38,962 nucleotides of DNA, taken from positions 1-38,962 of the forward strand of contig CALKNI010000103.1 in the NCBI GenBank assembly GCA_938091115.1. Reading direction: 5' to 3'. This document shows, in pieces, positions 3,797 through 31,889 of this stretch. The position numbers and the translations under genes are program-made. Numbering within the stretch: the first letter of the stretch is position 1; each line of letters begins with the position of its first letter. The notes beneath the pieces were generated by a model. That model made no database searches and was not told the origin of the DNA. It saw only the letters and a program-made list of their open reading frames with translations. This DNA is from an uncultured Pirellulaceae bacterium (GTDB lineage: Bacteria > Planctomycetota > Planctomycetia > Pirellulales > Pirellulaceae).

Positions 3797-4427
<631 letters not shown>

Positions 4428-4991
4428 TTAGGATTTGTCCTTTCGCCCAACATTCCATTCAGTTTCTGGGCACTGATCGAGCTGGTTTGTGTACCTCGCC
4501 AGTACAAAAAGTAAGTCGCTTAAGCGGTTAAGATAGATAAGTTCAAGTGATAATTCAGTCTCTATTTGAGAGTCCATCAGTTCAACCAGTTGCCGTTCGG
4601 CGCGACGGCAAACCGATCTGGCAAGATGAAGCGTGCTACCAGTCCTCCCACCACTGGGAAGTATAAAAGCTCTTAACGGAGGGAGTTCTTCATTGTATTG
4701 GTCAATCGCTTTCTCAAGTTCTGCGACTCGTTCAGATGGAAAGTTGGGGATGCGATCAGAAGTGCTCAAACAGGCTGCGACTCGACTACCGAGATCAAAT
4801 AGGTCATGCTGGATCTGTGTCAGCAGTAAATTGAGTGATTTCGAACGATTTTCAACCCGCGCCAAACCAATAAAAGAGTTGATTTCGTCTGTCGAACCAC
4901 AGACTTTGATTGCGGAATGAGATTTTGAGACACGAATTCCACCGAGTAAGCTGGTCTCGCCTTGATCACCGGTTTTAGTATAGATTTTCAT
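4428..4991 (-). CDS. PduO-type ATP:cob(I)alamin adenosyltransferase
   Basis: This 187-residue protein begins with the family signature MKIYTKTGDQGETSLLGG, which forms the ATP-binding P-loop-like N-terminus of PduO/MMAB enzymes. It continues with STDEINSFIGLAR and SGGRTGSTLHLARSVCRRAER, and ends near LIYLNRLSDLLFVLARY. These match the conserved trimer-interface and cobalamin-site helices. It transfers the 5'-deoxyadenosyl group of ATP to cob(I)alamin, making coenzyme B12. The length is normal. It is divergent from the Nudix gene, with about 60 bases between the two starts. No other B12 gene is in the window. Confidence 0.92.
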   Translation of the reverse strand: MKIYTKTGDQGETSLLGGIRVSKSHSAIKVCGSTDEINSFIGLARVENRSKSLNLLLTQIQHDLFDLGSRVAACLSTSDRIPNFPSERVAELEKAIDQYNEELPPLRAFILPSGGRTGSTLHLARSVCRRAERQLVELMDSQIETELSLELIYLNRLSDLLFVLARYTNQLDQCPETEWNVGRKDKS

Positions 4992-5647: not shown

Positions 5648-6403
5648 TCAAACTTCGGCAGTCGCAAGATAGGATGTTCCGTGGCAGGCGAAGGTAGCAC
5701 ACTGTCGGTTGTATTCCCAGCAATCTTGACAGTGCGGGGTTTTACATCTTTCGCATATCACCATTTGTTCGGTAATTCGCCCATTGCAGATTGGGCATGT
5801 GATCGATTCGAGAATGGTAGCGTTATTCTCGTTCAGGAAATGAAGTCCTTCGGTAGAGATTAGCATCAACTGATCGAACAACTCAAGTGAGTAACGGATA
5901 AAGTTATGCAGTGGAAGGAGGTCTTTGAGAAAGCCGGGTTTTTGAATGAGCAATTTTCCTCGTTTGATCGAGATGTTGAGTTCGTTTGGTTGAGTTGAAT
6001 CCAGAAGTCGAATTAGGAGACTTTGGACATTGTAATTCAGCACTTTGTTGACTTGTTCAAACTGGTTAGTGCGGACGGAGAATCGGGAGTTAAATGCCAC
6101 CTGTTGGAATTCTACGGGCAAGATTTTCTTTGTACCTCGCGCTAATTTAGCGTCAAGCAGGGTTATGATTTGAAGTTTGAGGTCGTTGTTTGGCCAAATC
6201 AGCGACATCTCCGTAAGTTTACCAGTTTGGAAAATCGAATTTGTGTGACTTTGAAGAAGGCAACTCGTTCGTCCATAGTCAAACGCCAGCGTCGGTTTTA
6301 TAAAACCCCAACCATAGGTTGCCCCGCCAATTTTGTTTTTACCAATAAAGTAATTTTCAAGTTGGGAGTAGGTGCGGTTCCATTTCCCAAATTGTTTTAA
6401 CAT
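5648..6403 (-). CDS. RING-type zinc-binding protein, putative E3 of the ubiquitin-like operon
   Basis: This 251-residue protein is the last gene of the ubiquitin-like operon, 65 bases after the JAB gene, with AGGAAAGGA before its ATG. Residues 1-195 form a beta-rich region ending in amphipathic helices; VEFQQVAFNSRFSVRTNQ and NISIKRGKLLIQK recall DUF3137-like domains. Residues 203-241 are cysteine-rich: C203-x2-C206, C217-x2-C220, H224/C225-x2-C228, C235-x4-C240. The aromatic DCWEYNRQCATFAC is typical of prokaryotic RING fingers. The order fits a cross-braced two-zinc treble clef. RING proteins in such operons are predicted E3 ligases that bring E2 and substrate together. There is no membrane segment. 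The E3 role is inferred from domain and context. Confidence 0.75.
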   Translation of the reverse strand: MLKQFGKWNRTYSQLENYFIGKNKIGGATYGWGFIKPTLAFDYGRTSCLLQSHTNSIFQTGKLTEMSLIWPNNDLKLQIITLLDAKLARGTKKILPVEFQQVAFNSRFSVRTNQFEQVNKVLNYNVQSLLIRLLDSTQPNELNISIKRGKLLIQKPGFLKDLLPLHNFIRYSLELFDQLMLISTEGLHFLNENNATILESITCPICNGRITEQMVICERCKTPHCQDCWEYNRQCATFACHGTSYLATAEV

Positions 6404-6468
6404 TGAATTTCCTTTCCTGAGGCAGCTAAGGCGGTAGTTAGGGTAGTCTCGGTGTCAAAATGTTTTAA

Positions 6469-7944
6469 TTAATCAAGATTGAATTTCTCTTTTTGTCGGA
6501 GTAATCCCGGAGTTGGGGAATTGCTGACAAAAAACATTTCACTTGCATTCGTGGGGGATGCTTGGGGATTTATCTCTTGAGAGGTGCGGGGTAAGTCCAG
6601 CGATTTATCAGAGATCTCTTGTTCAGAAAGAGAAGCATTTGTGTCATCGAAATCTTTTTTTCGACTTGATTGATTCAAAAAGAAACCGGTTGCTAGAGTC
6701 GCCAGGCCAGTCCCGCCAAAGATAGCCCAGTACCATTTTGGGTTAATTTGACCCATTGATGAACTTAAAAGCTCCGCCTCATTATCTGGATGGGATGCTT
6801 GTTGAAACCTCTTTTTTAAAGCGGCTTTTGCCCTTTCATGTGTCTCTGCCATCTCGCTTAATTTTTGATCATGTGCACGTTGCTTTTGCTGAAGTGCAAT
6901 TTGGTAGTCTAAGTTCTTGCTGGTTAAATTCTCAATCAATAACTGTTGGTTTTGATAGCTTGATTGGAGCTGGTTCTGAGAAACTTGAAGTTTGGTGTAT
7001 TGGTCGACAAGTTGAGGATACCCGGTTTCGTGGGCTACAATTGCCGTGAGGATTTCGCGATAAGCACTTTCTTTTGCGGACAGGATCTCATCAGCAGTCA
7101 ATTCAGCGTTGGCAGTTCTTGTTTGAGTCGTGAGAGATTGGTCGACACTACTTGTTTTACTGTCAGCCCATTGGTTGTAGGTGAGAAAGCAGAGGAAGAT
7201 AAACTGCAGCACCAACAATCCTGCGATGGAGACTTCAGAGATTATTCGGCGGTTCTCCATTACCACTACGGGAGGGGAGCTCGTGTTTTGGGGCGAGTAT
7301 CGAGGATCTTGATTCAAGACGGGCTCCTTGTTGTAAAAATTTGCATACTGCTCCAGCTCTACACTTCTTAAACGGTTGGTGGTTAATATGAATCCTTGGC
7401 TTTGCCGTTTTTTGGCGGGGGAACTGTCAGCCCAGTAGAACCAGCCTCGCTCCTGCTTGCAGGGATCGATCACCAAAGCTACATCGAGTGCTCGGTTGAA
7501 AAAATTATTACAAATAAATAGATCCATCCCGGACAGAAAGACGCCCCAGCCGGGATGCGTGTGATACCAGCCAACCATTTCTAAATCGGGGCGAAACCCT
7601 TCTCGCTGACGCGTTATTTCTCGCCAGGTTTCGTGTGTAAATTTGAATGTGCCTTTCGTAGCTTCGAAGTGAGTTGCTCTCAAACAATCCGAGATTACAA
7701 CAAACGGTTTTCCAGCGTGATCGATAAATTGTCTACCCAGCAAAACTCCGCCTAACTCGACATTGGCATTACTAAGGGCGTGGGCTTCCATGTCACGTTG
7801 GACATCGAGATCAACGAAAATAGTGAGGTCGTCTGAAGCGGTTTGGCCAACAACTTTCGTTGAAAAATGGGCGTCATCATCGGGGCGAATCGAGATTTGA
7901 GGTTGGGCTTGTGCCATTTCGCCCAGTTGAATTTCATCATCCAT
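6469..7944 (-). CDS. JAB/JAMM-domain peptidase with two membrane segments and a coiled coil
   Basis: The N-terminal domain (about residues 40-175) is a JAB/MPN metalloprotease with all zinc and catalytic residues: Glu63 in ELGGVLLG, then H128-T-H130-P, Ser138 and Asp141 in YHTHPGWGVFLSGMDLF. A first membrane helix lies at about 238-256, then a Gln/Lys/Glu-rich coiled coil at about 265-375, a second membrane helix (WYWAIFGGTGLATLATGFF) near 392-412, and a polar tail, for 491 residues in all. JAMM enzymes hydrolyse isopeptide bonds next to ubiquitin-like C-termini. ATG 7944, five codons after AAGGAA and just past the E1 stop, is preferred; an in-frame GTG 7962 would overlap the E1 gene. Coupling to E1 translation is likely. 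Confidence 0.85.
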   Translation of the reverse strand: MDDEIQLGEMAQAQPQISIRPDDDAHFSTKVVGQTASDDLTIFVDLDVQRDMEAHALSNANVELGGVLLGRQFIDHAGKPFVVISDCLRATHFEATKGTFKFTHETWREITRQREGFRPDLEMVGWYHTHPGWGVFLSGMDLFICNNFFNRALDVALVIDPCKQERGWFYWADSSPAKKRQSQGFILTTNRLRSVELEQYANFYNKEPVLNQDPRYSPQNTSSPPVVVMENRRIISEVSIAGLLVLQFIFLCFLTYNQWADSKTSSVDQSLTTQTRTANAELTADEILSAKESAYREILTAIVAHETGYPQLVDQYTKLQVSQNQLQSSYQNQQLLIENLTSKNLDYQIALQQKQRAHDQKLSEMAETHERAKAALKKRFQQASHPDNEAELLSSSMGQINPKWYWAIFGGTGLATLATGFFLNQSSRKKDFDDTNASLSEQEISDKSLDLPRTSQEINPQASPTNASEMFFVSNSPTPGLLRQKEKFNLD

Positions 7945-7946
7945 GC

Positions 7947-9230
7947 CTAGCATTCCTTGCACTGGGATGGAGCAAGCAGTGAGCCAGTGTTGGCTGGCTG
8001 CTGGTCGTTTGTATTCACGGCAAAATGGGATGCTTCCGGTAAGTCATTTTGTAATTTTACGAATAGTGTTTCTTGACCGTCTGAGACTTTTATGATGTCA
8101 TACTCTGGAATGCCCAGGTCATAAAGCGTTTCTTTAGCAAGCTCGGAGTCGCATTCTATTTCGCTAGTTGTGAGTGGGTGGCAGGCCTCTCCACAGTGAT
8201 GGCAAATTCCTTTTTCAGCAGTGACCTGACTCGCGGGTATCAGCTCGCGTTGTTCGATGCCACAGGTTCGGCAATTGAGCGAAATAAGAAAGTCGCGATC
8301 CAATAAGATGCACCAGGAATTAAGGGGTAGGTTTTGTCCGGATATCGTATTTCTCAGGTGGATAAACAGTTCTTCAGCTGTTGTGGTTCTGGCGGTCGAT
8401 GGGAGGTCAACGATTTTGTCATACGTCTCGTGAGACAGGCAATCAGGACGTCTTGGGTATCGAGTTTGATAAAAATTATTTGAAAGCCCATTGAAGACCA
8501 AGGCTGAGCCTTCGGCAGTTGGTAATTGATGAATCAATTTGAGCGCCTCTTGGACTTGGAGTCCTCCAATAATTGAAGCGATCGTTGGCGCGGTTGGGAC
8601 TTTGCCCTGTTGGATATCTTCTTTGCGTAAAAGCGGGCAACTATATCGCAGGGAAATGAGGCGATAGTCATTTTCAGTCATCGCGCACTCGTAGCACGCA
8701 CCTAAAGGAGGGCAGAAGACTTTGGCGACCCCATTGATTTCCTGAATTCCACCGTCAATCCAAGGTCGATTTGTTTTCCAACACATTCGATTAATCCACA
8801 GTCGTGCCTCTCGATTGTCAACACAGCATATGACGAGATTCATGTCAGCAACAAACCCCAGTCCGATGTCAGTCAGGATATCTCCAACGATTGGGTTGAT
8901 GTTGCAGTCTGGATTTAGGTCACGAGCCATTTCTGCAGCAACCAGAGCTTTCGCTCGCCCTTCGTGAGTTGCCCGGAAAAGAACGGAACGGGAGAGATTG
9001 GATTCCTGAACTTTGTCGAAATCAATGATGTTGATTTCCCCAATTCCCATCAAAGCAAGGTTCTTAATGACTTCATTTCCCAAGGCCCCTGCACCGACAA
9101 CAAGAATTTTAGCTGCTGCGATTTTTTCCTGTTCCCACCAAGCGATTAACTTCAATCTGGAGTACCGATCCGAGTCGTCGATTATCATCGGACTGCCGGG
9201 GTCAGGGTTGGAGTTTGGGTTGGGCCTCAT
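7947..9230 (-). CDS. E1-like ubiquitin-activating enzyme (ThiF/MoeB fold)
   Basis: This 427-residue protein has a Rossmann adenylation domain: GAGALG at 46-51, IIDFDKVQESNLSR at 68-81 (the Asp/Asn/Arg adenylate site) and Lys94. A structural zinc site is indicated by C179-x2-C182 and C264-x2-H267. The MoeB/UBA3-like helix APTIASIIGGLQVQEALKLI is present, but the position before TIAS that holds the catalytic cysteine in UBA3 is a proline here; Cys198 is the nearest alternative. Residues 280-427 are an extension with a zinc ribbon (C320/C323, C343/C346) inside what may be an E2-presenting fold ending near DIIKVSDGQETLFVKL. It would adenylate the Gly-terminated modifier encoded upstream. ATG 9188 is an alternative start. 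Confidence 0.87.
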   Translation of the reverse strand: MRPNPNSNPDPGSPMIIDDSDRYSRLKLIAWWEQEKIAAAKILVVGAGALGNEVIKNLALMGIGEINIIDFDKVQESNLSRSVLFRATHEGRAKALVAAEMARDLNPDCNINPIVGDILTDIGLGFVADMNLVICCVDNREARLWINRMCWKTNRPWIDGGIQEINGVAKVFCPPLGACYECAMTENDYRLISLRYSCPLLRKEDIQQGKVPTAPTIASIIGGLQVQEALKLIHQLPTAEGSALVFNGLSNNFYQTRYPRRPDCLSHETYDKIVDLPSTARTTTAEELFIHLRNTISGQNLPLNSWCILLDRDFLISLNCRTCGIEQRELIPASQVTAEKGICHHCGEACHPLTTSEIECDSELAKETLYDLGIPEYDIIKVSDGQETLFVKLQNDLPEASHFAVNTNDQQPANTGSLLAPSQCKEC

Positions 9231-9303
9231 TTTGTGTCACTTAATTATTATGAATGAAGAAAGGCATCGTTCCGAATGCGGTGACGTTTGGGCTACTCGT
9301 TCG

Positions 9304-9987
9304 TCAATCCAAAAACATGATCTCGACAGTTCGGCCATTAGGAGGATTGGCTGCGAATCTGGCGTCGATTATTTCGATCCCAGATTCCAAGATTTCAATT
9401 CCATTTTCTGTGACTTCGATAACGGCCATCTGATCAAGCGGATCCGTGTTTGCGATTGCAGCTAGCGATGGGATTGGCTGAAGAGGTGCGGCTTGCCCGA
9501 TTAGATTGCGAATGGGACGTTTGTCGGTTGGGAAATTGTTCTCAGGTTGTAACCGTGCCCAATGGGCTGCTTCGCGGTTGTAAGGACTTTCATAATCAAA
9601 GTTTTTATAGCGGATCATATCCCAGAGCATTGTGCTCATTTCACACAGAGTTAAGCTTGGCACCCAGTGTTTTCCGTAGCCACCAAGACAAACCACCCCG
9701 TTGTTTGAGATGTTGGGATGAAAGATCTTTGTTTCCCAAAGCAACCCAGGTGCCAAACGAGGATAGGCAGAGCCTAGATCGACACTTACAACGTGTTTCG
9801 AAGTTACGTGGACTCCAGAAAAAGACGTTTTTTTAATCCCATCCCCGCGAAACGTTAGGCGATATTTTGTCGGTAGTTTTCGAGAAGAACCAGCGGTTTC
9901 AAATGAAAAAATAGAACTCTCCTCCTGGAGTTGTTTGAGTGATTCTAAATCGGATTGAAGGCGGCGGTCGCGAGGAGATTTTCGCAT
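9304..9987 (-). CDS. E2-like ubiquitin-conjugating enzyme with HPN motif
   Basis: This 227-residue protein carries a UBC fold at about residues 5-147. The active-site block is very close to eukaryotic E2s: H90-P91-N92, Cys100 in GVVCLG, then WVPSLTL (compare W-S/P-alpha-LT) and ESPYNREAAHW (compare DPLNPEAA). The HPN Asn normally stabilises the oxyanion and Cys100 would carry the thioester. A C-terminal tail of about 80 residues (150-227) ends NGRTVEIMFLD and has no recognised domain. It lies between the modifier gene (48 bases upstream) and E1 (73 bases downstream). Together with the E1 and Gly-terminated modifier this strongly supports true conjugation rather than sulfur transfer. Confidence 0.88.
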   Translation of the reverse strand: MRKSPRDRRLQSDLESLKQLQEESSIFSFETAGSSRKLPTKYRLTFRGDGIKKTSFSGVHVTSKHVVSVDLGSAYPRLAPGLLWETKIFHPNISNNGVVCLGGYGKHWVPSLTLCEMSTMLWDMIRYKNFDYESPYNREAAHWARLQPENNFPTDKRPIRNLIGQAAPLQPIPSLAAIANTDPLDQMAVIEVTENGIEILESGIEIIDARFAANPPNGRTVEIMFLD

Positions 9988-10035
9988 TTTTCTCTCTTAC
10001 ATAAATCTTTAAAAGACTGGTCAAACGTGGATTAA

Positions 10036-10323
10036 TTATCCCGCCACAATCTCGGGATAGATGATGAGATGATCTCCTTTTGAAACATTGGCGTTGACGA
10101 GGGTTTCACTTTCGTGAAGTCGCCTTCCCCCTTCTTTATGATCGAGGCTGTAGCTCATCGGCTGGCCATCCGGGCCGATAGTGGGCAAATTCATTTTTGT
10201 GATGATATTGGGAAGAATGCGTTGGACCGTGATCGATTCAGAAACGATGGCTTCCACACTTTTTGAGCCGGTTTGATCGAAAAACGTAACCTGCGTCCCC
10301 TGTTTTTCCGAGGTTTGCGTCAT
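10036..10323 (-). CDS. Ubiquitin-like modifier protein (YukD-like beta-grasp)
   Basis: This 95-residue protein is the first gene of the operon. The pattern is that of a ubiquitin-like beta-grasp: a strand pair (QVTFFDQTGSKSVEAIV), the helix TVQRILPNIITKMNLP, the strand MSYSLDHKEGGRRLHESETL and the closing strand KGDHLIIYPEIVAG. It ends in Ala-Gly directly before the TAA stop, so no propeptide has to be removed before activation. The layout resembles YukD/EsaB-type ubiquitin-like proteins. No cysteine is present. Its E2, E1, JAB and RING partners follow on the same strand. AGGAAAG lies about ten bases before the ATG. Confidence comes as much from context as from the sequence. Confidence 0.8.
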   Translation of the reverse strand: MTQTSEKQGTQVTFFDQTGSKSVEAIVSESITVQRILPNIITKMNLPTIGPDGQPMSYSLDHKEGGRRLHESETLVNANVSKGDHLIIYPEIVAG

Positions 10324-11437: not shown

Positions 11438-12184
11438 ATGAGTTATTTAAATCGCTTCTTTCAGGAAGTATTCGACAATAATCCGCTCCCTTCGATCGGA
11501 AGCAGTTTCGATCAAGCGACCGATGCGCAGATGGCTGCTCATTTAAAAACCGATCAGTATGATTCGTTTCATTTAACCGAGGCAATCCGCCCGGCAATGG
11601 ATTTGAAAATCAAGCCGAGTCAAGGTTATCGCCACGATACTTATGTCGATCAGGAAACGAAGACAAAAGTACCGGTTATCATGGCGGCCGCATCGCGAGA
11701 GCAGCTATTTCCACTTTTCATTCGTCTAATTGAACGGCTCGGCCCTGTTGTTGATGTTGTTCTTGAGTCCAGCCATACCCGAGGTCAGGGGGGACATTTA
11801 AATCTCTACCGAGAACACATCGACATATCGGTGCTGACAAGTATCTTGTGGGATTTTGAAGATCTGTTGCTTAACGATGGGTGCACTGGTATCGCAGTTT
11901 TGAACCCTAACACCCCGCAGGAAATTCAATTTGAAGAGCACAAGTTATTGATTGTCTACGGCAGTCCATTGGAGCCATTTGAGTTTACTCTCGAGTCTCA
12001 TGGAGTTGGCGAGAATGAAGGAATTAAATTCATTAGGGAAGCTGAGCACATTCATTCGTCATCAGATGAGTTTGCCGAACAATTTTCTCAATTAAAAACT
12101 GCGCTGGGATTAGATGGTGATCATGGAATGCCAAAACAATCTCGAGGTGGGGATAACGAGGGGGAATACGGCGAAACGATTTAA
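11438..12184 (+). CDS. Conserved-looking protein of unknown function
   Basis: This 248-residue soluble protein has no signal peptide or membrane segment, and I do not recognise its family. Residues 75-190 look like an alpha/beta domain (VPVIMAAASREQLFPLFIR, VVDVVLESSH, ISVLTSILWDFEDLLLNDG, CTGIAVLN, KLLIVYGS). The last 50 residues are acidic and Ser/Gly-rich and probably disordered. The repeated pattern of a helix followed by a short hydrophobic strand, with LLIVYG near the end, suggests a small sensor or binding domain, but this is guesswork. It is a single-gene transcript, ending 43 bases before a strong terminator. Confidence 0.75.
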   Translation: MSYLNRFFQEVFDNNPLPSIGSSFDQATDAQMAAHLKTDQYDSFHLTEAIRPAMDLKIKPSQGYRHDTYVDQETKTKVPVIMAAASREQLFPLFIRLIERLGPVVDVVLESSHTRGQGGHLNLYREHIDISVLTSILWDFEDLLLNDGCTGIAVLNPNTPQEIQFEEHKLLIVYGSPLEPFEFTLESHGVGENEGIKFIREAEHIHSSSDEFAEQFSQLKTALGLDGDHGMPKQSRGGDNEGEYGETI

Positions 12185-25679: not shown

Positions 25680-26735
25680 ATGGAAACTGACATCTTGGAA
25701 GAAGACGGGAGTAAGGGCTGGATGCATTGCATTGCGAATCGAGAGAAAATGAACAATTGGAAAGCAGAAGTCAGGCGTCCATGTGAGGCGGTTGAGTCCA
25801 GGGGTAAGTTGAAAAAACAAGGGGCTCAATTAGAGGTGTTGAGTCGATTGCGGGAGGATATACGAAAGGTGGAAACAGCTGGAAGGATAGGTGACTTCAG
25901 TCGGATTTCTAGCGGTTTCACAGCGATTGATCAGTTGCTTCCCGAAGGTGGTTATTCGCGTGGAGTTCTAGTGCAGTGGCTAACAGGAGGAGGCGTGGGG
26001 GCGGACTATCTTTCCTTGGTGTTGGCGAGGCAGGCTTGTCAAAATGGTGGGGCATTAGTCGTAGCGGATCCATTTAATCAATTTTATCCACCTGCAGCAG
26101 CAGCGATTGGAATTAATCTTGATCACTTGGTGGTGCTGCGAGGCAAAAATGTAGATATGGCGGATGCGCAAGGACAAACTGATTTTTTCTGGTCGATTGA
26201 TCAAGCGTTGCGTTGTTCTGGCGTTGCTGCTGTTTGGGGGCCATTGGGGAAAGTGAGTGAGCGTTGGTTCCGGCGTTTTCAATTGTCGGCCGAAGCCAGT
26301 GGCTGTATGGGAATTTTTGTTCAGCCTTTAGAGGTGTTGCGTCAGCCGAGCTGGGCCGAAGTTCAATGGGTGGTTAGTAGTGGTGTTCGGCGAACAAAGG
26401 AGGAGAGAGCTCGCGGAGATCATGTTCAGCAATCTCATGTTCCATTTAATGGAAGTGCAGATCTTCAGCCTTTGCTAAGGAAGGGTTTTCGTGCCCGGCA
26501 AAAGCTAAGGCTGCAGTTAACGCGGTGTCGTGGCACGCAGACTGGAAAATTGATTGACTTATCAATTGATGCGATCACGGGTAGCGTATCCCTGAATCGA
26601 GTTAAACCTGTTGGGAAGAGTTGTGGAAGTGAGGCTTCTGTATTTTCCCAACAGAGAGGGCGTGGTGAATTGCAAATCTCCAGTAATTCTTCTTTGCGGA
26701 CAGATGAAAAGCTGGGGAGTGGAGCTAGTGCCTGA
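25680..26735 (+). CDS. imuA: ImuA, RecA/SulA-like component of the mutasome
   Basis: This protein of about 351 residues has the RecA-like ImuA pattern: ISSGFTAIDQLLPEGGYSRGVLVQWL, followed by ADYLSLVLARQACQNGGALVVADP and the FYPPAAAAIGINLDHLVVLRG and GVAAVWGPLG strands. The Walker A region reads TGGGVGADYLS and lacks the usual GKT, as is common for ImuA. ImuA, ImuB and DnaE2 form the translesion mutasome; ImuA is thought to link it to RecA. The ATG is six bases after GTG 25674. Its stop overlaps the most likely alternative start of imuB, so the pair is translationally coupled. Confidence 0.88.
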   Translation: METDILEEDGSKGWMHCIANREKMNNWKAEVRRPCEAVESRGKLKKQGAQLEVLSRLREDIRKVETAGRIGDFSRISSGFTAIDQLLPEGGYSRGVLVQWLTGGGVGADYLSLVLARQACQNGGALVVADPFNQFYPPAAAAIGINLDHLVVLRGKNVDMADAQGQTDFFWSIDQALRCSGVAAVWGPLGKVSERWFRRFQLSAEASGCMGIFVQPLEVLRQPSWAEVQWVVSSGVRRTKEERARGDHVQQSHVPFNGSADLQPLLRKGFRARQKLRLQLTRCRGTQTGKLIDLSIDAITGSVSLNRVKPVGKSCGSEASVFSQQRGRGELQISSNSSLRTDEKLGSGASA

Positions 26736-28578
26736 AGTTCGATTGTCGCACAGTAAGCGAATTCTCTGCCTTTGGTTTCCAAATTGGCCAATCCAGCGAT
26801 TGGTAGTGGATCAAGTGGAGTTGAGGAAGCAACGAATTATTTTGTTTCGCCGGGATTCTAGGCGTGGGCAGCTGGTTTCTGCCGCCAGCCCATTGGCAAT
26901 CAAAGGCGGAGTGTGTGAAGGGATGCCGGTTTCTGAAGCAAAGTCTCTGCTTCGCGGTAGCGGTAGGTTTGCAATTTTTGAGCACGATTTGGAACAAGAC
27001 GTAGCGGGGTTGGAGACACTATCTGATTCGCTAGAAGAGTTTAGCCCGGTTGTTGGATTAGAGACGATCGATTCGCAAGATTTTAAGCGAGGAAGACGCC
27101 CGAATTCATTGTTTTTGGATGTGACTGGATTGGCTCATTTATTCGGAGATGAGGCTCAATTAGCTCGCCAGTTACTCTTACATTGTGATCGATTAGGTTA
27201 TCTTCCAAGAGTGGCTATTGCGGACACCGTGGGAGAAGCGTGGGGGTTGGCACGTTATGCAGCAGGACATCATTTTACTGAAACGCGTCAGCCTTTAGTG
27301 ATGCCAATTGCGAAGAAGCGTGATGAGACAGCGGACGAACTGATTCGCCAGTTACCGGTTGAATCGTTGCGATTAGATTCTGCAGTCGTCGATACATTGT
27401 TTCAGTTAGGGATAGAGAGTCTTGGGCAGCTTCTCAGGCTCTCAAGAGACGAGTTAGCGATGAGATTGGGGGATGTTATTCATCGCCGGTTGGATCAGTT
27501 TTCAGGAAAAACTGAAGAGCCTATTGTTGCAAGGCGGAAGCCAACCGAGTTTGTTGCTGAACAGATATTGGACTATTCCACGAGTCATCGAGAAACCATA
27601 GAGGTGATTGTTGCAAGGTTAGTGTGCCGTTTATGTGAGCAGTTGAGATCTGGTCAACAGGGAGCTTTGGAATGGCGGGTGCGATTGAAATGTCAGAAAG
27701 AGGCGGCGATTGAATTTCAAGTGAACTTGTTTCAACCCACTGCTGAAACAGCTCAGGTCATGCCCTTGATCGCAATGCAATTGGAGCAGGCGTTAGCGCC
27801 GGTGACGCGCCGTTCCAGGAAAAAGAAAAAGACTGTAAAGGATTCCAGATTCCAAGCAGCTTCAGGATTAAAAAAACAGTCAAAAGAAAAGGGGGCGCGG
27901 TCGACTGATGAATCACGAGACGATTCAAATTGGTGTACACGGGAAAGTGAATTTTTTCATCGATATACGACAACCTCGGTTCAAGAGATTGTCGTCAGCG
28001 TGAATTCACACGTTGTATTGGTACAGGAGCAGCGGCAGTTGTTCGATGAAAGCCCCAGGTTGGATCGTCAGGCACTATCTCATTTGATTAATCGTCTTTC
28101 CAATCGTATAGGTCCTGAAAATGTCGTCTACCCTGCCCTGCTTTCAGGAGCGCAACCCGAATATGCGTACCGTTTAAAGCCCCTGGTTGATCCTAGTCGC
28201 CAGCGTCGCCGTAGAAAATCGAAAGCAGTTCGCCGGTCGCATATCCAGGCACGTCCTCTTCGGCTTTTCCGCCCCCCATTGCCTTTGCGAACGATCCGTA
28301 TTTTGGAGTCTGAGAAGAATGAGGGAATTCCCAATCAGTTACAGGCTTGTGATGAATCGAGGTTGTCCAGTGAGGTGCCCCCCGTTTTGTTGCGAGTGAA
28401 TGATAACGCTGTATTGCGAGTCTCAGATGCCTGGGGGCCTGAGCGTATTGAAACGGGCTGGTGGCGAGGTTTGACCATTTGTCGAGATTACTGGCGGGTT
28501 GAAATCGAAACGAAACAGCATTTATGGGTTTACCGGGATTTAAGATCAGGCGCCTGGTTTTTGCACGGAGAGTTTTAG
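26704..28578 (+). CDS. imuB: ImuB, catalytically inactive Y-family polymerase-like protein
   Basis: This protein of about 624 residues has the Y-family fold. RILCLWFPNWPIQRL replaces the DinB block that carries the first catalytic Asp, and EEFSPVVGLE replaces the SxDE block, so the metal ligands are missing, as in other ImuB proteins. FLDVTGLAHLFGDE and the little-finger region follow. QEQRQLFDE near the C-terminus fits a beta-clamp-binding motif, and a basic stretch (SRQRRRRKSKAVRRSH) follows it. ImuB acts as the hub between clamp, ImuA and DnaE2. ATG 26704 is used; GTG 26728, with GGGGAG upstream and overlapping the imuA stop, is an equally good start. The frame is open from 26611. Confidence 0.9.
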   Translation: MKSWGVELVPEVRLSHSKRILCLWFPNWPIQRLVVDQVELRKQRIILFRRDSRRGQLVSAASPLAIKGGVCEGMPVSEAKSLLRGSGRFAIFEHDLEQDVAGLETLSDSLEEFSPVVGLETIDSQDFKRGRRPNSLFLDVTGLAHLFGDEAQLARQLLLHCDRLGYLPRVAIADTVGEAWGLARYAAGHHFTETRQPLVMPIAKKRDETADELIRQLPVESLRLDSAVVDTLFQLGIESLGQLLRLSRDELAMRLGDVIHRRLDQFSGKTEEPIVARRKPTEFVAEQILDYSTSHRETIEVIVARLVCRLCEQLRSGQQGALEWRVRLKCQKEAAIEFQVNLFQPTAETAQVMPLIAMQLEQALAPVTRRSRKKKKTVKDSRFQAASGLKKQSKEKGARSTDESRDDSNWCTRESEFFHRYTTTSVQEIVVSVNSHVVLVQEQRQLFDESPRLDRQALSHLINRLSNRIGPENVVYPALLSGAQPEYAYRLKPLVDPSRQRRRRKSKAVRRSHIQARPLRLFRPPLPLRTIRILESEKNEGIPNQLQACDESRLSSEVPPVLLRVNDNAVLRVSDAWGPERIETGWWRGLTICRDYWRVEIETKQHLWVYRDLRSGAWFLHGEF

Positions 28579-28634
28579 TAGAAAAATATTTTCAGTTGTT
28601 TGTTCACGACGGATTAGCGAGGCGAAACTAGAGG

Positions 28635-31600
28635 ATGTATTCGGAGCTTCATTGCAAAACAAATTATTCTTTTTTGACAGGTGGTTCCCATGCAGACGAA
28701 TTGGTACACCGCGCTGTCAAATTAGGGTACCGCGCCCTGGCGGTAACTGACGAAAACACACTTGCTGGAATTGTGCGTGCCTTTGGCGCGGTGCGAGAAG
28801 CAACGGGGAATCGTTCGCCGGGCTACCCGGATCGCCTGAGATGTTCTCAGCCTCATTCTGAGAAAAGTAAATGCGAGGAAACTCCAAACTTACAATTGAT
28901 CATTGGTGCTGAAATTATCCCTAATGATGCTCCGCCGCTAGTTTTGTGGGCAATCAATCGCCGTGGGTATGCCAATCTTTCCCGAATGATTACTGCCGGG
29001 CGGCGGCGGGCAAGTAAGGGAGAGTGTTGGTTGACATTGGCGGATATAGAGGAGTACGCCGAAGGGCTTTTGGGGGGGGTTATCCCAACTTTCCAAGGTG
29101 AGCGGCTGAGAACTGAGCCAATGGATTCACTGCATCCAAGTTACGCCTGGTATCATCGCGAGGGTGATTGCGAATGGACCAAGTCGGAGAGTGGGTTTCT
29201 CAAAAAGCTCAATATTTACAGAGAGATTTTTGGTGATCGAGCATATTTGTTGGCATCACTGTACCGTGGCGTTGATGACCACTGGAGGAGTGAACAGCTT
29301 AAACAGCTTTCAGGGAATTCAAGTTTACCGTTGGTGGCAGCTGGTGACGTGCTGTACCATTCGCCTGCGAGATTGCCTTTGCACGATACGTTGACAGCGA
29401 TCAAGCATTGTACAACGGTGGCTTCGGCGGGAGACCTGATTCTTCCCAATGCCCAGCGTTATTTGCAAGCTGAGCATGATCGGTGTCAAGCGTTTGATAA
29501 TATTCCGGGAGCCTTGGAGCGAATAGACGAGGTCGTTGATCGCTGTGATTTTTGTCTCAGTGCTTTGCGGTATGAGTATCCCGAAGAGCTGTCGCCTGAC
29601 GGTCGACCCCCAATTGAATATTTGACCCAATTGACGAGGGCGGGAGCCAGTGAACGGTATCCCAATGGGGTACCCGATCGGGTTGAGAATCAAATTGATC
29701 ATGAATTGAAGTTAATTGATGAACTTAAATATGAAGCCTATTTTTTAACAGTTTGGGATTTGGTTCGGTTTGCTCGAGGGCGTGGAATTTTATGTCAGGG
29801 GCGAGGTTCGGCTGCAAATTCAGCTGTCTGTTTCTGTTTGGGGGTAACGGCAGTCGATCCAGAAACGACGGAACTGCTCTTTGAGCGATTCATCAGTAAA
29901 GAGAGAGATGAAGCACCCGATATTGATATTGATTTTGAGCATGAACGCCGAGAGGAAGTGCTGCAATATCTATATCAAAAATATGGTCGAGAGCGTGCTG
30001 GGTTGGCGGCAACGGTTGTCACGTACCGAATTCGCAGTGCGATCCGCGACGTAGGTAAGGCGCTGGGATTATCTCTCGATCGCGTCGATGCTTTAGCTAA
30101 GTACGTGGAGAGCAGTAGTTCAAGAGTTGATTTATCTGAGAAAATGCAACAGGTTGGAATGGATCCAGAGTCTGAGCTCGGGGTTCGCTTGATCTATCTT
30201 GTAAACGAGTTGCTTGGTTTTCCACGTCACCTTTCGCAGCACGTCGGCGGAATGGTGATGACACAAGGGCGTTTGGACGAACTGGTTCCGATCGAAAATG
30301 CTTCAATGGACGGGCGAACGGTAATTCAATGGGACAAGGATGATCTTGAAGAGTTGGGGATTTTGAAAGTTGACTGCCTTTGCCTGGGGATGTTGTCAGC
30401 TATTCGGAAATGTTTTCATTTAGTTGAGCAGCATTGGGGGCGGCATTGCTCGCTGGCGAACATTCCTCAAGAGGATCCTCGAGTCTACGATATGATTTGT
30501 GCAGCTGACACAGTTGGTGTTTTTCAGATAGAGAGTCGCGGTCAGATGAGCATGTTGCCGAGGCTTAAACCTCGTTGCTGGTACGATCTGGTTATCGAAG
30601 TAGCGATCGTCCGTCCCGGGCCAATTCAAGGGAATATGGTTCATCCGTACCTGCGTCGACGCAGTGGTAATGAACCGGTGGTCTATCCTACTCCGGAGAT
30701 TAAAGCTGTTTTAGAACGAACGTTAGGGGTACCCATTTTTCAGGAACAAGCAATGAAGCTTGCGGTGGTTGCTGCCGGTTTTACGCCCGGTGAGGCAGAT
30801 CAGTTACGAAGAGCGATGGGGAAATGGCGGAAGACGGGGGTGATCCAGCAGTTTCACGATAAGCTCATGCGCGGGATGGCGGAGCGAGGATTGCCTGAAG
30901 AATTTGCTGAGCAGGTGTTCCGGCAGATCAGTGGCTTTGGTGAATATGGGTTTCCAGAATCGCATGCGGCGAGTTTTGCAAAACTGGTTTACGTGTCGGC
31001 ATGGCTAAAGTACTACTATCCGGCGGCATTTTGTGCGGCAATCATTAACAGTTTCCCAATGGGGTTTTATGCACCGGCACAATTAGTTGCCGATGCTCGG
31101 AAGCATGGTGTCGAGGTATTGCCAGTCGACGTCAATCACAGCGATTGGGATTGCACGCTCGAAATGGATCAACGCTGCCTTCGTTTGGGGATGAGGATGA
31201 TTAGCGGGCTTCGTTCGACGGTTGCCGAGAAAATTATGGAAATGCGTCAGGGAGGGGCTTATGAAAGTGTTTCTGGATTTACTCGGCGGACTGGTTTTGG
31301 TCAGGCGATCATCGCTCACTTAAGTCGAGCGGATGCTTTTGGCTCGCTTAATCAAGATCGTCGCTCGGCATTGTGGCAGGCTTTAGGGCAGGAGAAGAAG
31401 CCAAAAGAACAACCTCTCTTTGATCAACTTGAAGCGCACGATGATGAAACGCTCGCCCTGCCAGAATTAGAACTCGACGTTCAAGTGGCGGCAGATTACC
31501 AGACGATCGGGCTATCTTTGAAAGCGCACCCGATGTCGTTTCAGCGGGAGATGTTAAATGAGCTTCGCGTGACTGAGTGCCGAGACCTTAAGGAGACGCA

Positions 31601-31889
31601 AGACAACCGGCATTTAAGGGTAGCAGGTTTAGTAATTGTTCGGCAAAGGCCAGCGACGGCGAACGGGATTACTTTCGTAACTCTAGAGGACGAAACTGGT
31701 AATGCTAATTTAATTGTAAAACGTTCTATTTGGCAGCGATATTTTAAAGTTGCTTCCCAAAGTTCAGCGTGGATCGCCCATGGAAAGCTGGAGAGAAAAA
31801 AAAACGTCACTCACGTGATCGTTAACCGGCTTGAGGATCTGTCCAGCCGGTTATCGGAGCTTGGAATTCAATCAAGAGATTTTCGATAG
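28635..31889 (+). CDS. dnaE2: Error-prone DNA polymerase DnaE2 (ImuC)
   Basis: This 1084-residue C-family polymerase opens with the PHP domain (MYSELHCKTNYSFLTGGSHADEL, AVTDENTLAGIVRA). The palm contains GRGSAANSAVCFCLGVTAVDP, the catalytic pair in DEAPDIDIDFEHERR and the third acid region around VDCLCLGMLSA. The fingers include IFQEQAMKLAVVAAGF and GFPESHAASFA. The C-terminal OB domain has LRVAGLVIVRQRP. The length is typical of DnaE2 rather than the replicative DnaE1. It would do mutagenic translesion synthesis with ImuA and ImuB, encoded just upstream. A good GAGG lies directly before the ATG. Confidence 0.95.
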   Translation: MYSELHCKTNYSFLTGGSHADELVHRAVKLGYRALAVTDENTLAGIVRAFGAVREATGNRSPGYPDRLRCSQPHSEKSKCEETPNLQLIIGAEIIPNDAPPLVLWAINRRGYANLSRMITAGRRRASKGECWLTLADIEEYAEGLLGGVIPTFQGERLRTEPMDSLHPSYAWYHREGDCEWTKSESGFLKKLNIYREIFGDRAYLLASLYRGVDDHWRSEQLKQLSGNSSLPLVAAGDVLYHSPARLPLHDTLTAIKHCTTVASAGDLILPNAQRYLQAEHDRCQAFDNIPGALERIDEVVDRCDFCLSALRYEYPEELSPDGRPPIEYLTQLTRAGASERYPNGVPDRVENQIDHELKLIDELKYEAYFLTVWDLVRFARGRGILCQGRGSAANSAVCFCLGVTAVDPETTELLFERFISKERDEAPDIDIDFEHERREEVLQYLYQKYGRERAGLAATVVTYRIRSAIRDVGKALGLSLDRVDALAKYVESSSSRVDLSEKMQQVGMDPESELGVRLIYLVNELLGFPRHLSQHVGGMVMTQGRLDELVPIENASMDGRTVIQWDKDDLEELGILKVDCLCLGMLSAIRKCFHLVEQHWGRHCSLANIPQEDPRVYDMICAADTVGVFQIESRGQMSMLPRLKPRCWYDLVIEVAIVRPGPIQGNMVHPYLRRRSGNEPVVYPTPEIKAVLERTLGVPIFQEQAMKLAVVAAGFTPGEADQLRRAMGKWRKTGVIQQFHDKLMRGMAERGLPEEFAEQVFRQISGFGEYGFPESHAASFAKLVYVSAWLKYYYPAAFCAAIINSFPMGFYAPAQLVADARKHGVEVLPVDVNHSDWDCTLEMDQRCLRLGMRMISGLRSTVAEKIMEMRQGGAYESVSGFTRRTGFGQAIIAHLSRADAFGSLNQDRRSALWQALGQEKKPKEQPLFDQLEAHDDETLALPELELDVQVAADYQTIGLSLKAHPMSFQREMLNELRVTECRDLKETQDNRHLRVAGLVIVRQRPATANGITFVTLEDETGNANLIVKRSIWQRYFKVASQSSAWIAHGKLERKKNVTHVIVNRLEDLSSRLSELGIQSRDFR

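Follow-up and report, generated by a model that had tools for sequence, protein, structure and literature searches.

A five-gene operon of an uncultured Pirellulaceae bacterium probably encodes a self-contained, reversible protein-tagging cycle, to judge from the sequences of its products and of their relatives. It lies on contig CALKNI010000103.1 (C103) of GenBank assembly GCA_938091115.1 (4.19 Mb in 232 contigs, 88% complete), of which positions 1 to 38,962 of the forward strand were analyzed; this whole stretch of 38,962 nucleotides is referred to as the window. From first to last, the genes encode a ubiquitin-like (Ubl) modifier, a conjugating enzyme (E2), an activating enzyme (E1), a JAMM protease and a RING protein (Table 1), separated by 48, 73, 2 and 65 bases, and each of the five products exceeds the curated cut-off of its own Pfam family. 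A preliminary description of the window had proposed five minus-strand genes at these positions and spacings, forming a complete operon for conjugation and removal, and both statements hold, as the open reading frames and gaps agree, the families match, the catalytic residues are kept in about 80 loci and the E1 model is closest to UBA3. As the description also said, the operon is a new instance of a kind predicted earlier, and the accessible part of a review reports related operons in planctomycetes (PMC4197634).

Distribution and Architecture of the Operon

An E2 match was found in 27 of 60 nearby genomes, namely the host itself, 20 of 27 genus members, five of nine other family members and one of 23 other members of the order. 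In 26 loci fetched around the E2 matches of the 59 other genomes, the genes that are present keep the order Ubl, E2, E1, JAMM, RING (21 loci with all five, five cut by a contig end, four with extra JAMM or E2 copies in between). The operon is therefore more than a chance arrangement, since E2 recurs in 26 of the 59 other genomes and gene order is kept around it. The preliminary description had pointed to its conservation across the Planctomycetota as worth mapping: 38 of 392 genomes of the phylum (own included) match an E2 profile, many remotely, and a scan covering 84,980 species, each represented by a single genome, added 80 loci, nearly all planctomycete. The species scan used two E2 peptide patterns and hence misses remote relatives; the best 80 of its 92 stretches (L057-L136), together with the window, make up the 81 loci referred to below. 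By title or by genus, all of the 80 belong to planctomycetes apart from L113 (Abditibacteriales), L124 and L125 (the latter two labeled 'bacterium'), and the nearest named relatives are metagenome-assembled genomes (MAGs) called Mariniblastus or Pirellulaceae. Carriers that are not MAGs include Planctomycetales bacterium 10988, with all five genes, and Singulisphaera sp. GP187, with all five and RING in front; Paludisphaera soli JC670 and Aquisphaera insulae JC669 carry the operon without a RING gene within the fetched flanks.

The window's architecture, Ubl-E2-E1-JAMM-RING, is found in 24 of the 81 loci. In 22 others a second E2 follows JAMM and between one and three RING genes come after it; all but one of these 22 also have an extra short JAMM ahead of E1. 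Nine have RING in front, and one is complete but for a Ubl cut at the contig end. Two or three RING genes are present in 10 of the expanded operons. Where all five genes are available (53/81 loci), median pairwise identity falls from 0.78 for Ubl through 0.59 for E2, 0.57 for E1 and 0.39 for JAMM to 0.28 for RING, an order in keeping with a modifier that has many partners and with a substrate-facing ligase (E3) that changes fast. Remote planctomycete operons (L167, L168, L170) are arranged differently, with a Ubl ending in PEITAG (with a tail or none), E1, JAMM, one or two RINGs and E2 last.

Conserved Features of the Five Proteins

The modifier ends in Gly, as the preliminary description had it; its C-terminus reads VAG, with a single Gly and no Gly-Gly. 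While archaeal and eukaryotic ubiquitin has a C-terminal Gly-Gly, Ala-Gly stands at this place in all 79 Ubl matches (window included), within the motif PE[IV]VAG; 46 end exactly there, 30 have a tail and three are in one frame with E2. The window modifier consists of one Ubl domain (one YukD match over 95 residues) rather than two tandem domains, and a PDB sequence search with it returned no match below E 0.28.

The active-site Cys of the first E2 is invariant (81/81 loci) and HPN is kept in 80 of 81, so that the HPN motif and active-site Cys noted in the window's E2 are confirmed and located (Table 1). W84 and P110-S111 are invariant in 23 aligned rows; these we take to be the positions at which eukaryotic E2s face their E3. 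The best PDB chains for this protein are UBE2D. A UQ_con search of the host genome gives the window E2 as sole match; a Prok-E2_B (Pfam) search of that genome gave none, but is uninformative, as positive controls gave none either.

The residue equivalent to E1 Cys198 is Cys in all 79 readable E1s, the remaining two of 81 being cut by contig ends, and an invariant CxxC...CxxC (320, 323, 343, 346) marks the C-terminal domain. Structure prediction, also suggested in the preliminary description, was run for E1 and the RING protein. For E1 (pLDDT 80.3) the best PDB match of the model is UBA3 of the NEDD8 E1 (E 2.3e-22, TM-score 0.47 of query), with ThiF close behind. When a C-terminal ubiquitin-fold domain (UFD) was looked for, UBA3 aligned along the length at rmsd 11-15 and TM-score <0.5 (Foldseek), and an alpha/beta domain predicted for the most part with confidence was seen at about 270-393, where the CxxC...CxxC lies. 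Residues 192-199, including Cys198, are modeled at low confidence, as a mobile loop would be.

In the JAMM protein, the motif residues E63, H128, H130, S138 and D141 were found by eye, hence the motif is intact as had been claimed; it is present in 101 of 102 JAMM matches, the exception, in L084, being cut by a contig end. The catalytic domain is followed by a hydrophobic segment and a long polar stretch that looks coiled-coil-like by eye, and a second hydrophobic stretch (405-423) reaches a mean hydropathy of just 1.25. The hydropathy scan finds at least one hydrophobic segment in 71 of the 72 long JAMM matches and in 61 of the 68 RING matches; it is a guide only, because in 25 of 81 loci it also flags parts of E1, which is soluble. 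The preliminary description had called the whole system membrane-tied, which stands for the JAMM protein of the window but not for its RING protein, where no such segment was found.

Eight zinc ligands, the fifth being Cys or His, are present in 65 of 68 RING matches (the other three are cut by contig ends), and in all 65 readable fingers Ile/Val precedes the second Cys and Trp follows the sixth ligand. The window's finger thus shares the eight ligands and the Ile/Val E2 contact with canonical RING E3s but lacks their Arg/Lys linchpin. As to the proposal that the RING protein selects substrates, a role as E3 can be suggested: the zinc ligands and the Ile/Val are kept, but the usual linchpin is seldom present. 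The fold model (pLDDT 83.7) comprises an N-terminal alpha/beta domain and the finger. The finger resembles Bmi-1/Ring1B, cIAP2 and p62 ZZ domains at weak E-values (at least 0.07, Foldseek), and the best PDB sequence match of the RING profile is the RING of plant cellulose synthase IRX3 (E 0.0018). The model as a whole matches 6t84 (TtfA, described as a trehalose monomycolate transport factor; E 1.6e-4 over 193 columns, Foldseek), and the N-terminal alpha/beta domain is probably the part that does so. TtfA is a partner of MmpL3. Near Isosphaeraceae-type operons (L135:10857-14522) an M48 CAAX-type protease (family in eight loci) and an MMPL transporter (family in six loci) were seen, and the TtfA-like RING model may be set beside the latter.

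A Second E2 Without Active-Site Cysteine in Expanded Relatives

A second E2 is encoded downstream of JAMM in 25 of the 81 loci (e.g., L073, L075, L081, L082, L086, L087, L096, L099, L111), and 24 of these have a second, short JAMM upstream of E1. The active-site column of the second E2 holds Cys in none of the 25 (N in 10, D in four, S in three, G in two, and R, F, E, K, A and H once each), nor is there a Cys within the 28 alignment columns around this position. HPN is nevertheless retained in 22 of 25, and the second E2 of L096, the sole one scanned, matches PF00179 above cut-off. A quick E2 tree (n=67) was built from the 25 Cys-less E2s, the 25 active E2s beside them and 17 selected from the 56 loci that have no second E2. 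All Cys-less E2s fall on the same side of one branch (a single change; SH-aLRT 88, which is below the program's star). Four long branches among them are flagged and two long ones join, so that they likely, though not certainly, arose once. Among 25 loci with two JAMMs, 10 have a tailed modifier, vs 20 of 54 others, hence the second JAMM is not simply a maturing enzyme.

Eukaryotic ubiquitin E2 variants (UEVs) such as Mms2 and Tsg101 have an E2 fold without the active-site Cys, as do some human E2s. The second E2 of the expanded relatives is likewise a UBC domain without this Cys; the window itself has no such gene. A dead E2 as such is not new, because inactive E2-like domains are known from bacterial polyUbl operons, where, in the accessible part of the source, the inactive E2 accompanies tandem Ubl domains (PMC11354881). 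Here, in contrast, the Cys-less E2 has a gene of its own next to those for an active E2 and RING proteins, solely in relatives of the window, and together with the second JAMM it may represent a new variant. Among the papers seen in a literature search, none dealt with a Cys-less E2 encoded separately from an active neighbor, nor with a tested planctomycete conjugation system.

Chromosomal Site, Possible Loss and Mobility

In L057, L058, L080 and L083, the operon is flanked on one side by genes for NUDIX, cobalamin adenosyltransferase, a protein we take to be GlnB, and GlnD, and on the other by GNAT and a 248-residue protein. The site is common to the genus (L057, L058) and more distant Pirellulaceae (L080, L083), and its wider surroundings include GlnD, MutL, shikimate and DNA polymerase III genes. 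The 248-residue protein (window positions 11438-12184) has no Pfam match and is present in all seven genus genomes without E2. In two of those genomes (L153, L154), NUDIX directly adjoins GNAT, so that the operon is cleanly absent; L155 has different genes at the site, and three others have the flanking genes on separate contigs. At the usual site in genome G004 (L152), an orphan modifier (4197-4484) ends in EIVAR instead of EIVAG, while the genome has no E2 match and the site no E1, JAMM or RING. Loss rather than gain in the E2-less relatives is the simpler reading, because more distant members share the site.

A tblastn search at E 1e-5 found no E2 relatives among 72,556 records of plasmids and 50,697 of phages, and of 37 E2 pattern matches in viral contigs none was confirmed. 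A mobile element or defense island, considered as the setting of the operon, is disfavored by the shared site and these empty E2 searches. With E1 as query, nine plasmid records were matched, eight of them over 56-66% at 28-32% identity, three of these eight being annotated as MoeB or ThiF-like. The ninth, covering 87%, lies on Crinalium epipsammum plasmid pCRI9333.03 (L179), which is typed as mobilizable; its gene row reads ThiF-type E1, two small unknown genes, an annotated E2 and Mov34/MPN, with no RING annotated.

Proposed Tagging Cycle and Alternative Explanations

What the sequences show is which genes are present, how they are ordered, that they occur together and that their catalytic residues are conserved. 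The cycle that we infer, in its catalytic steps, the pairing of E1, E2 and RING and its membrane action, would begin with adenylation of the modifier's C-terminal Gly by E1, which would then take the modifier onto Cys198 and pass it to Cys100 of E2. The RING protein would bring charged E2 to substrates, perhaps recognized by its N-terminal domain, and the membrane-anchored JAMM would remove the tag, presumably at the membrane; in relatives with a tailed modifier, JAMM probably also matures it. As to what the cycle is for, a role in handling membrane or membrane-associated proteins, by a resident system rather than mobile phage defense, is tentatively favored, short of being called probable. 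That planctomycetes run such a resident, membrane-based, non-defense pathway, and that many of them have gained, apparently apart from eukaryotes, a UEV-like dead E2, a second JAMM and several RINGs, is conceivable but rather doubtful.

The preliminary description had noted that related Bil/Bub operons are linked to phage defense; were the present operon defensive, it would tag phage proteins during infection, as BilABCD does. Tested bacterial Ubl-E1-E2-JAB operons do appear to be mainly defensive, according to the accessible part of the source (PMC12687455), the operon can be absent as a unit, and in PADLOC the E1 adenylation domain matches the E1-E2 (5.2e-19) and BilD (2.9e-9) models and JAMM matches JAB models weakly. 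Yet neither Ubl nor E2 nor RING matches a PADLOC model, the site lies among the housekeeping genes named above, and no E2 relative was found in the plasmid, phage and viral collections. Four of 10 flanking proteins match PADLOC models, namely GlnD (Cas3b, 4e-4), NUDIX (PDC-S07, 1.4e-7), a MacB-like protein (CARF-LolE, 2.5e-7) and a sigma-54 regulator (RtcR, 1.5e-108); these are read as shared domains, although the NUDIX match is to a candidate defense family. Genomic context thus leaves the link to defense unsupported; defense is unlikely, and a resident membrane-linked tagging cycle is the more likely of the two. That the Ubl is thiocarboxylated by a ThiF/MoeB-type E1 as a sulfur carrier for cofactor or amino-acid synthesis would explain why the E1 domain matches ThiF/MoeB models, but these matches fall far under the NCBIfam cut-offs (136 bits vs 275 for ThiF, 104 vs 377 for MoeB), sulfur transfer is not known to involve a RING or an E2 whose Cys and HPN are intact, and the seven E2-less genus genomes hold E1 matches that are just 24-36% identical over partial length, which makes this reading very improbable. 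YukD/EsaB proteins work non-covalently with type VII secretion, and the Pfam YukD match would allow the same for the modifier; with conjugation enzymes in the same operon and no such secretion gene among the Pfam-scanned window proteins (the rest of the genome was not searched), this is scarcely to be expected.

Conjugation could also be real with the zinc finger serving as a scaffold or ZZ-like reader, substrates being chosen by E2 and membrane proximity. The rarity of the linchpin, the p62 ZZ domains among the best structural matches (at weak E-values) and the 13 RING-less loci not cut near a contig end would agree with such a finger. The Prok-RING_1 match, the Ile/Val and Trp in all readable fingers, the E3-facing E2 loops invariant in 23 rows and the two or three RING genes of 10 expanded operons speak for an E3 instead, and we regard a non-E3 finger as improbable.

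Several observations weigh against a resident, membrane-based cycle with a RING E3. The window's RING protein and the five RING relatives closest to it (L057, L058, L061, L062, L063) are without a hydrophobic segment, a partial copy in L104 being too incomplete to judge. The linchpin after the last Cys is present in just eight of 65 fingers, the window having His there, and no RING was seen in 25 of 81 loci, of which 12 are cut near a contig end and 13 are not, hence RING is not always beside the rest of the operon. Seven of the 27 genus members have no E2 match, and the Arg-ending orphan modifier is a single case in a genome that is 80% complete. The 248-residue family is near the operon in just 32 of 81 loci and was not seen within the fetched stretch of the remaining ones; other lineages have other neighbors, some of which recur, such as a transglutaminase-like gene in 16 loci, although these counts are rough, flanks having been clustered by single linkage on stop-to-stop frames. 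Finally, no known housekeeping process is tied to the operon by the present evidence. By eye, the transglutaminase-like gene at L095:4765-6285 has a lipoprotein-like start.

Comparison With Known Systems

Operons combining Prok-RING, a YukD-like Ubl, E1, E2 and JAB were reportedly predicted by Burroughs, Iyer and Aravind in 2011, and we know of no experimental study of them. With these operons the window shares the YukD-like Ubl, E1, the E2 with Cys and HPN, JAB and the eight-ligand Prok-RING; the Cys-less second E2, second JAMM, shared site and orphan modifier are observations of the present analysis. Type II Bub operons (Ye, Gong, Chambers and Corbett) are said to contain E1, E2, Ubl and a protease, and to our knowledge the bacterial ubiquitin-like systems tested have no RING.

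Review excerpts describe relatives of the Caldiarchaeum cluster in Actinobacteria, Planctomycetes and Acidobacteria, where these operons are sporadic and frequently absent from close relatives of a carrier (PMC4197634). The cluster of Candidatus Caldiarchaeum subterraneum comprises Ubl, E1, E2, a small RING and JAMM (Rpn11) and has been reconstituted in vitro; in the accessible text, its modifier is a pro-form with Gly-Gly and a nine-residue tail, whereas here there is a single Gly, tailless in the window, and its RING has the Arg/Lys linchpin, which is mostly absent here (PMC5654768). Unlike in that system, as far as the same text describes it, JAMM is membrane-anchored here and RING usually so (PMC5654768). 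BilABCD shares Ubl, E2, E1 and a JAB protease in one operon, but in the part of the source seen there are two Ubl domains in BilA and a CEHH motif in BilB, as opposed to one Ubl domain and HPN here, and the four Bil genes named there include no RING, which the window operon has (PMC11354881).

If the wider reading given above, with a UEV-like dead E2 gained by many planctomycetes, is true, a layered ubiquitin system exists inside bacteria, in which the pair of E2 and E2 variant could shape the tag or build chains. The lineage offers a RING-containing system with a kept chromosomal site, unlike the mainly defensive systems tested, and from its expanded relatives one could learn how layers of E2 variants and RING proteins come about in organisms other than eukaryotes.

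Feature Coordinates and Other Genes of the Window

Table 1. Features of the conjugation operon (window positions).
Feature	Position	Strand	Basis
Five-gene operon	5648-10323	minus	all five open reading frames located as in the preliminary description
Ubl modifier, YukD type, 95 aa, C-terminus ...YPEIVAG	10036..10323	minus	Pfam YukD (PF08817) 7.7e-13
Modifier C-terminal Gly95 codon, expected activation point (inferred)	10039..10041	minus	sequence
E2, UBC fold, 227 aa, HPN 90-92, Cys100	9304..9987	minus	Pfam UQ_con 5.9e-13
E2 active-site Cys100 codon	9688..9690	minus	Cys in 81/81 first E2s
E1, ThiF-type adenylation domain and C-terminal alpha/beta domain, 427 aa	7947..9230	minus	Pfam ThiF 3.7e-56
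E1 candidate thioester Cys198 (RYSCPLLR)	8637..8639	minus	Cys in 79/79 E1s reaching the position
JAMM/MPN+ protease, 491 aa	6469..7944	minus	Pfam JAB 2.3e-8, Prok-JAB 1.6e-6
JAMM motif HTHPGWGVFLSGMD	7522..7563	minus	motif in 101/102 JAMM matches
JAMM protein transmembrane segment, residues 234-256	7177..7245	minus	Kyte-Doolittle 19-residue mean up to 2.24
RING protein, 251 aa, N-terminal alpha/beta domain and C-terminal finger	5648..6403	minus	Pfam Prok-RING_1 (PF14446) 7.6e-9
RING finger, residues 203-240, eight Cys ligands	5684..5797	minus	eight-ligand pattern in relatives

The JAMM gene has an alternative GTG start at 7962. A scan for promoters and terminators gave no more than shuffled sequences (2 vs 6.6 and 7 vs 6.2). 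The host genome has one match to the proteasome family, which is probably HslV-like, because E. coli and B. subtilis match too. Elsewhere in the window (26611-31889), a Y-family polymerase-like (IMS) gene is followed by a DNA polymerase III alpha gene, a pair presumably arranged like the ImuB-DnaE2 mutasome.

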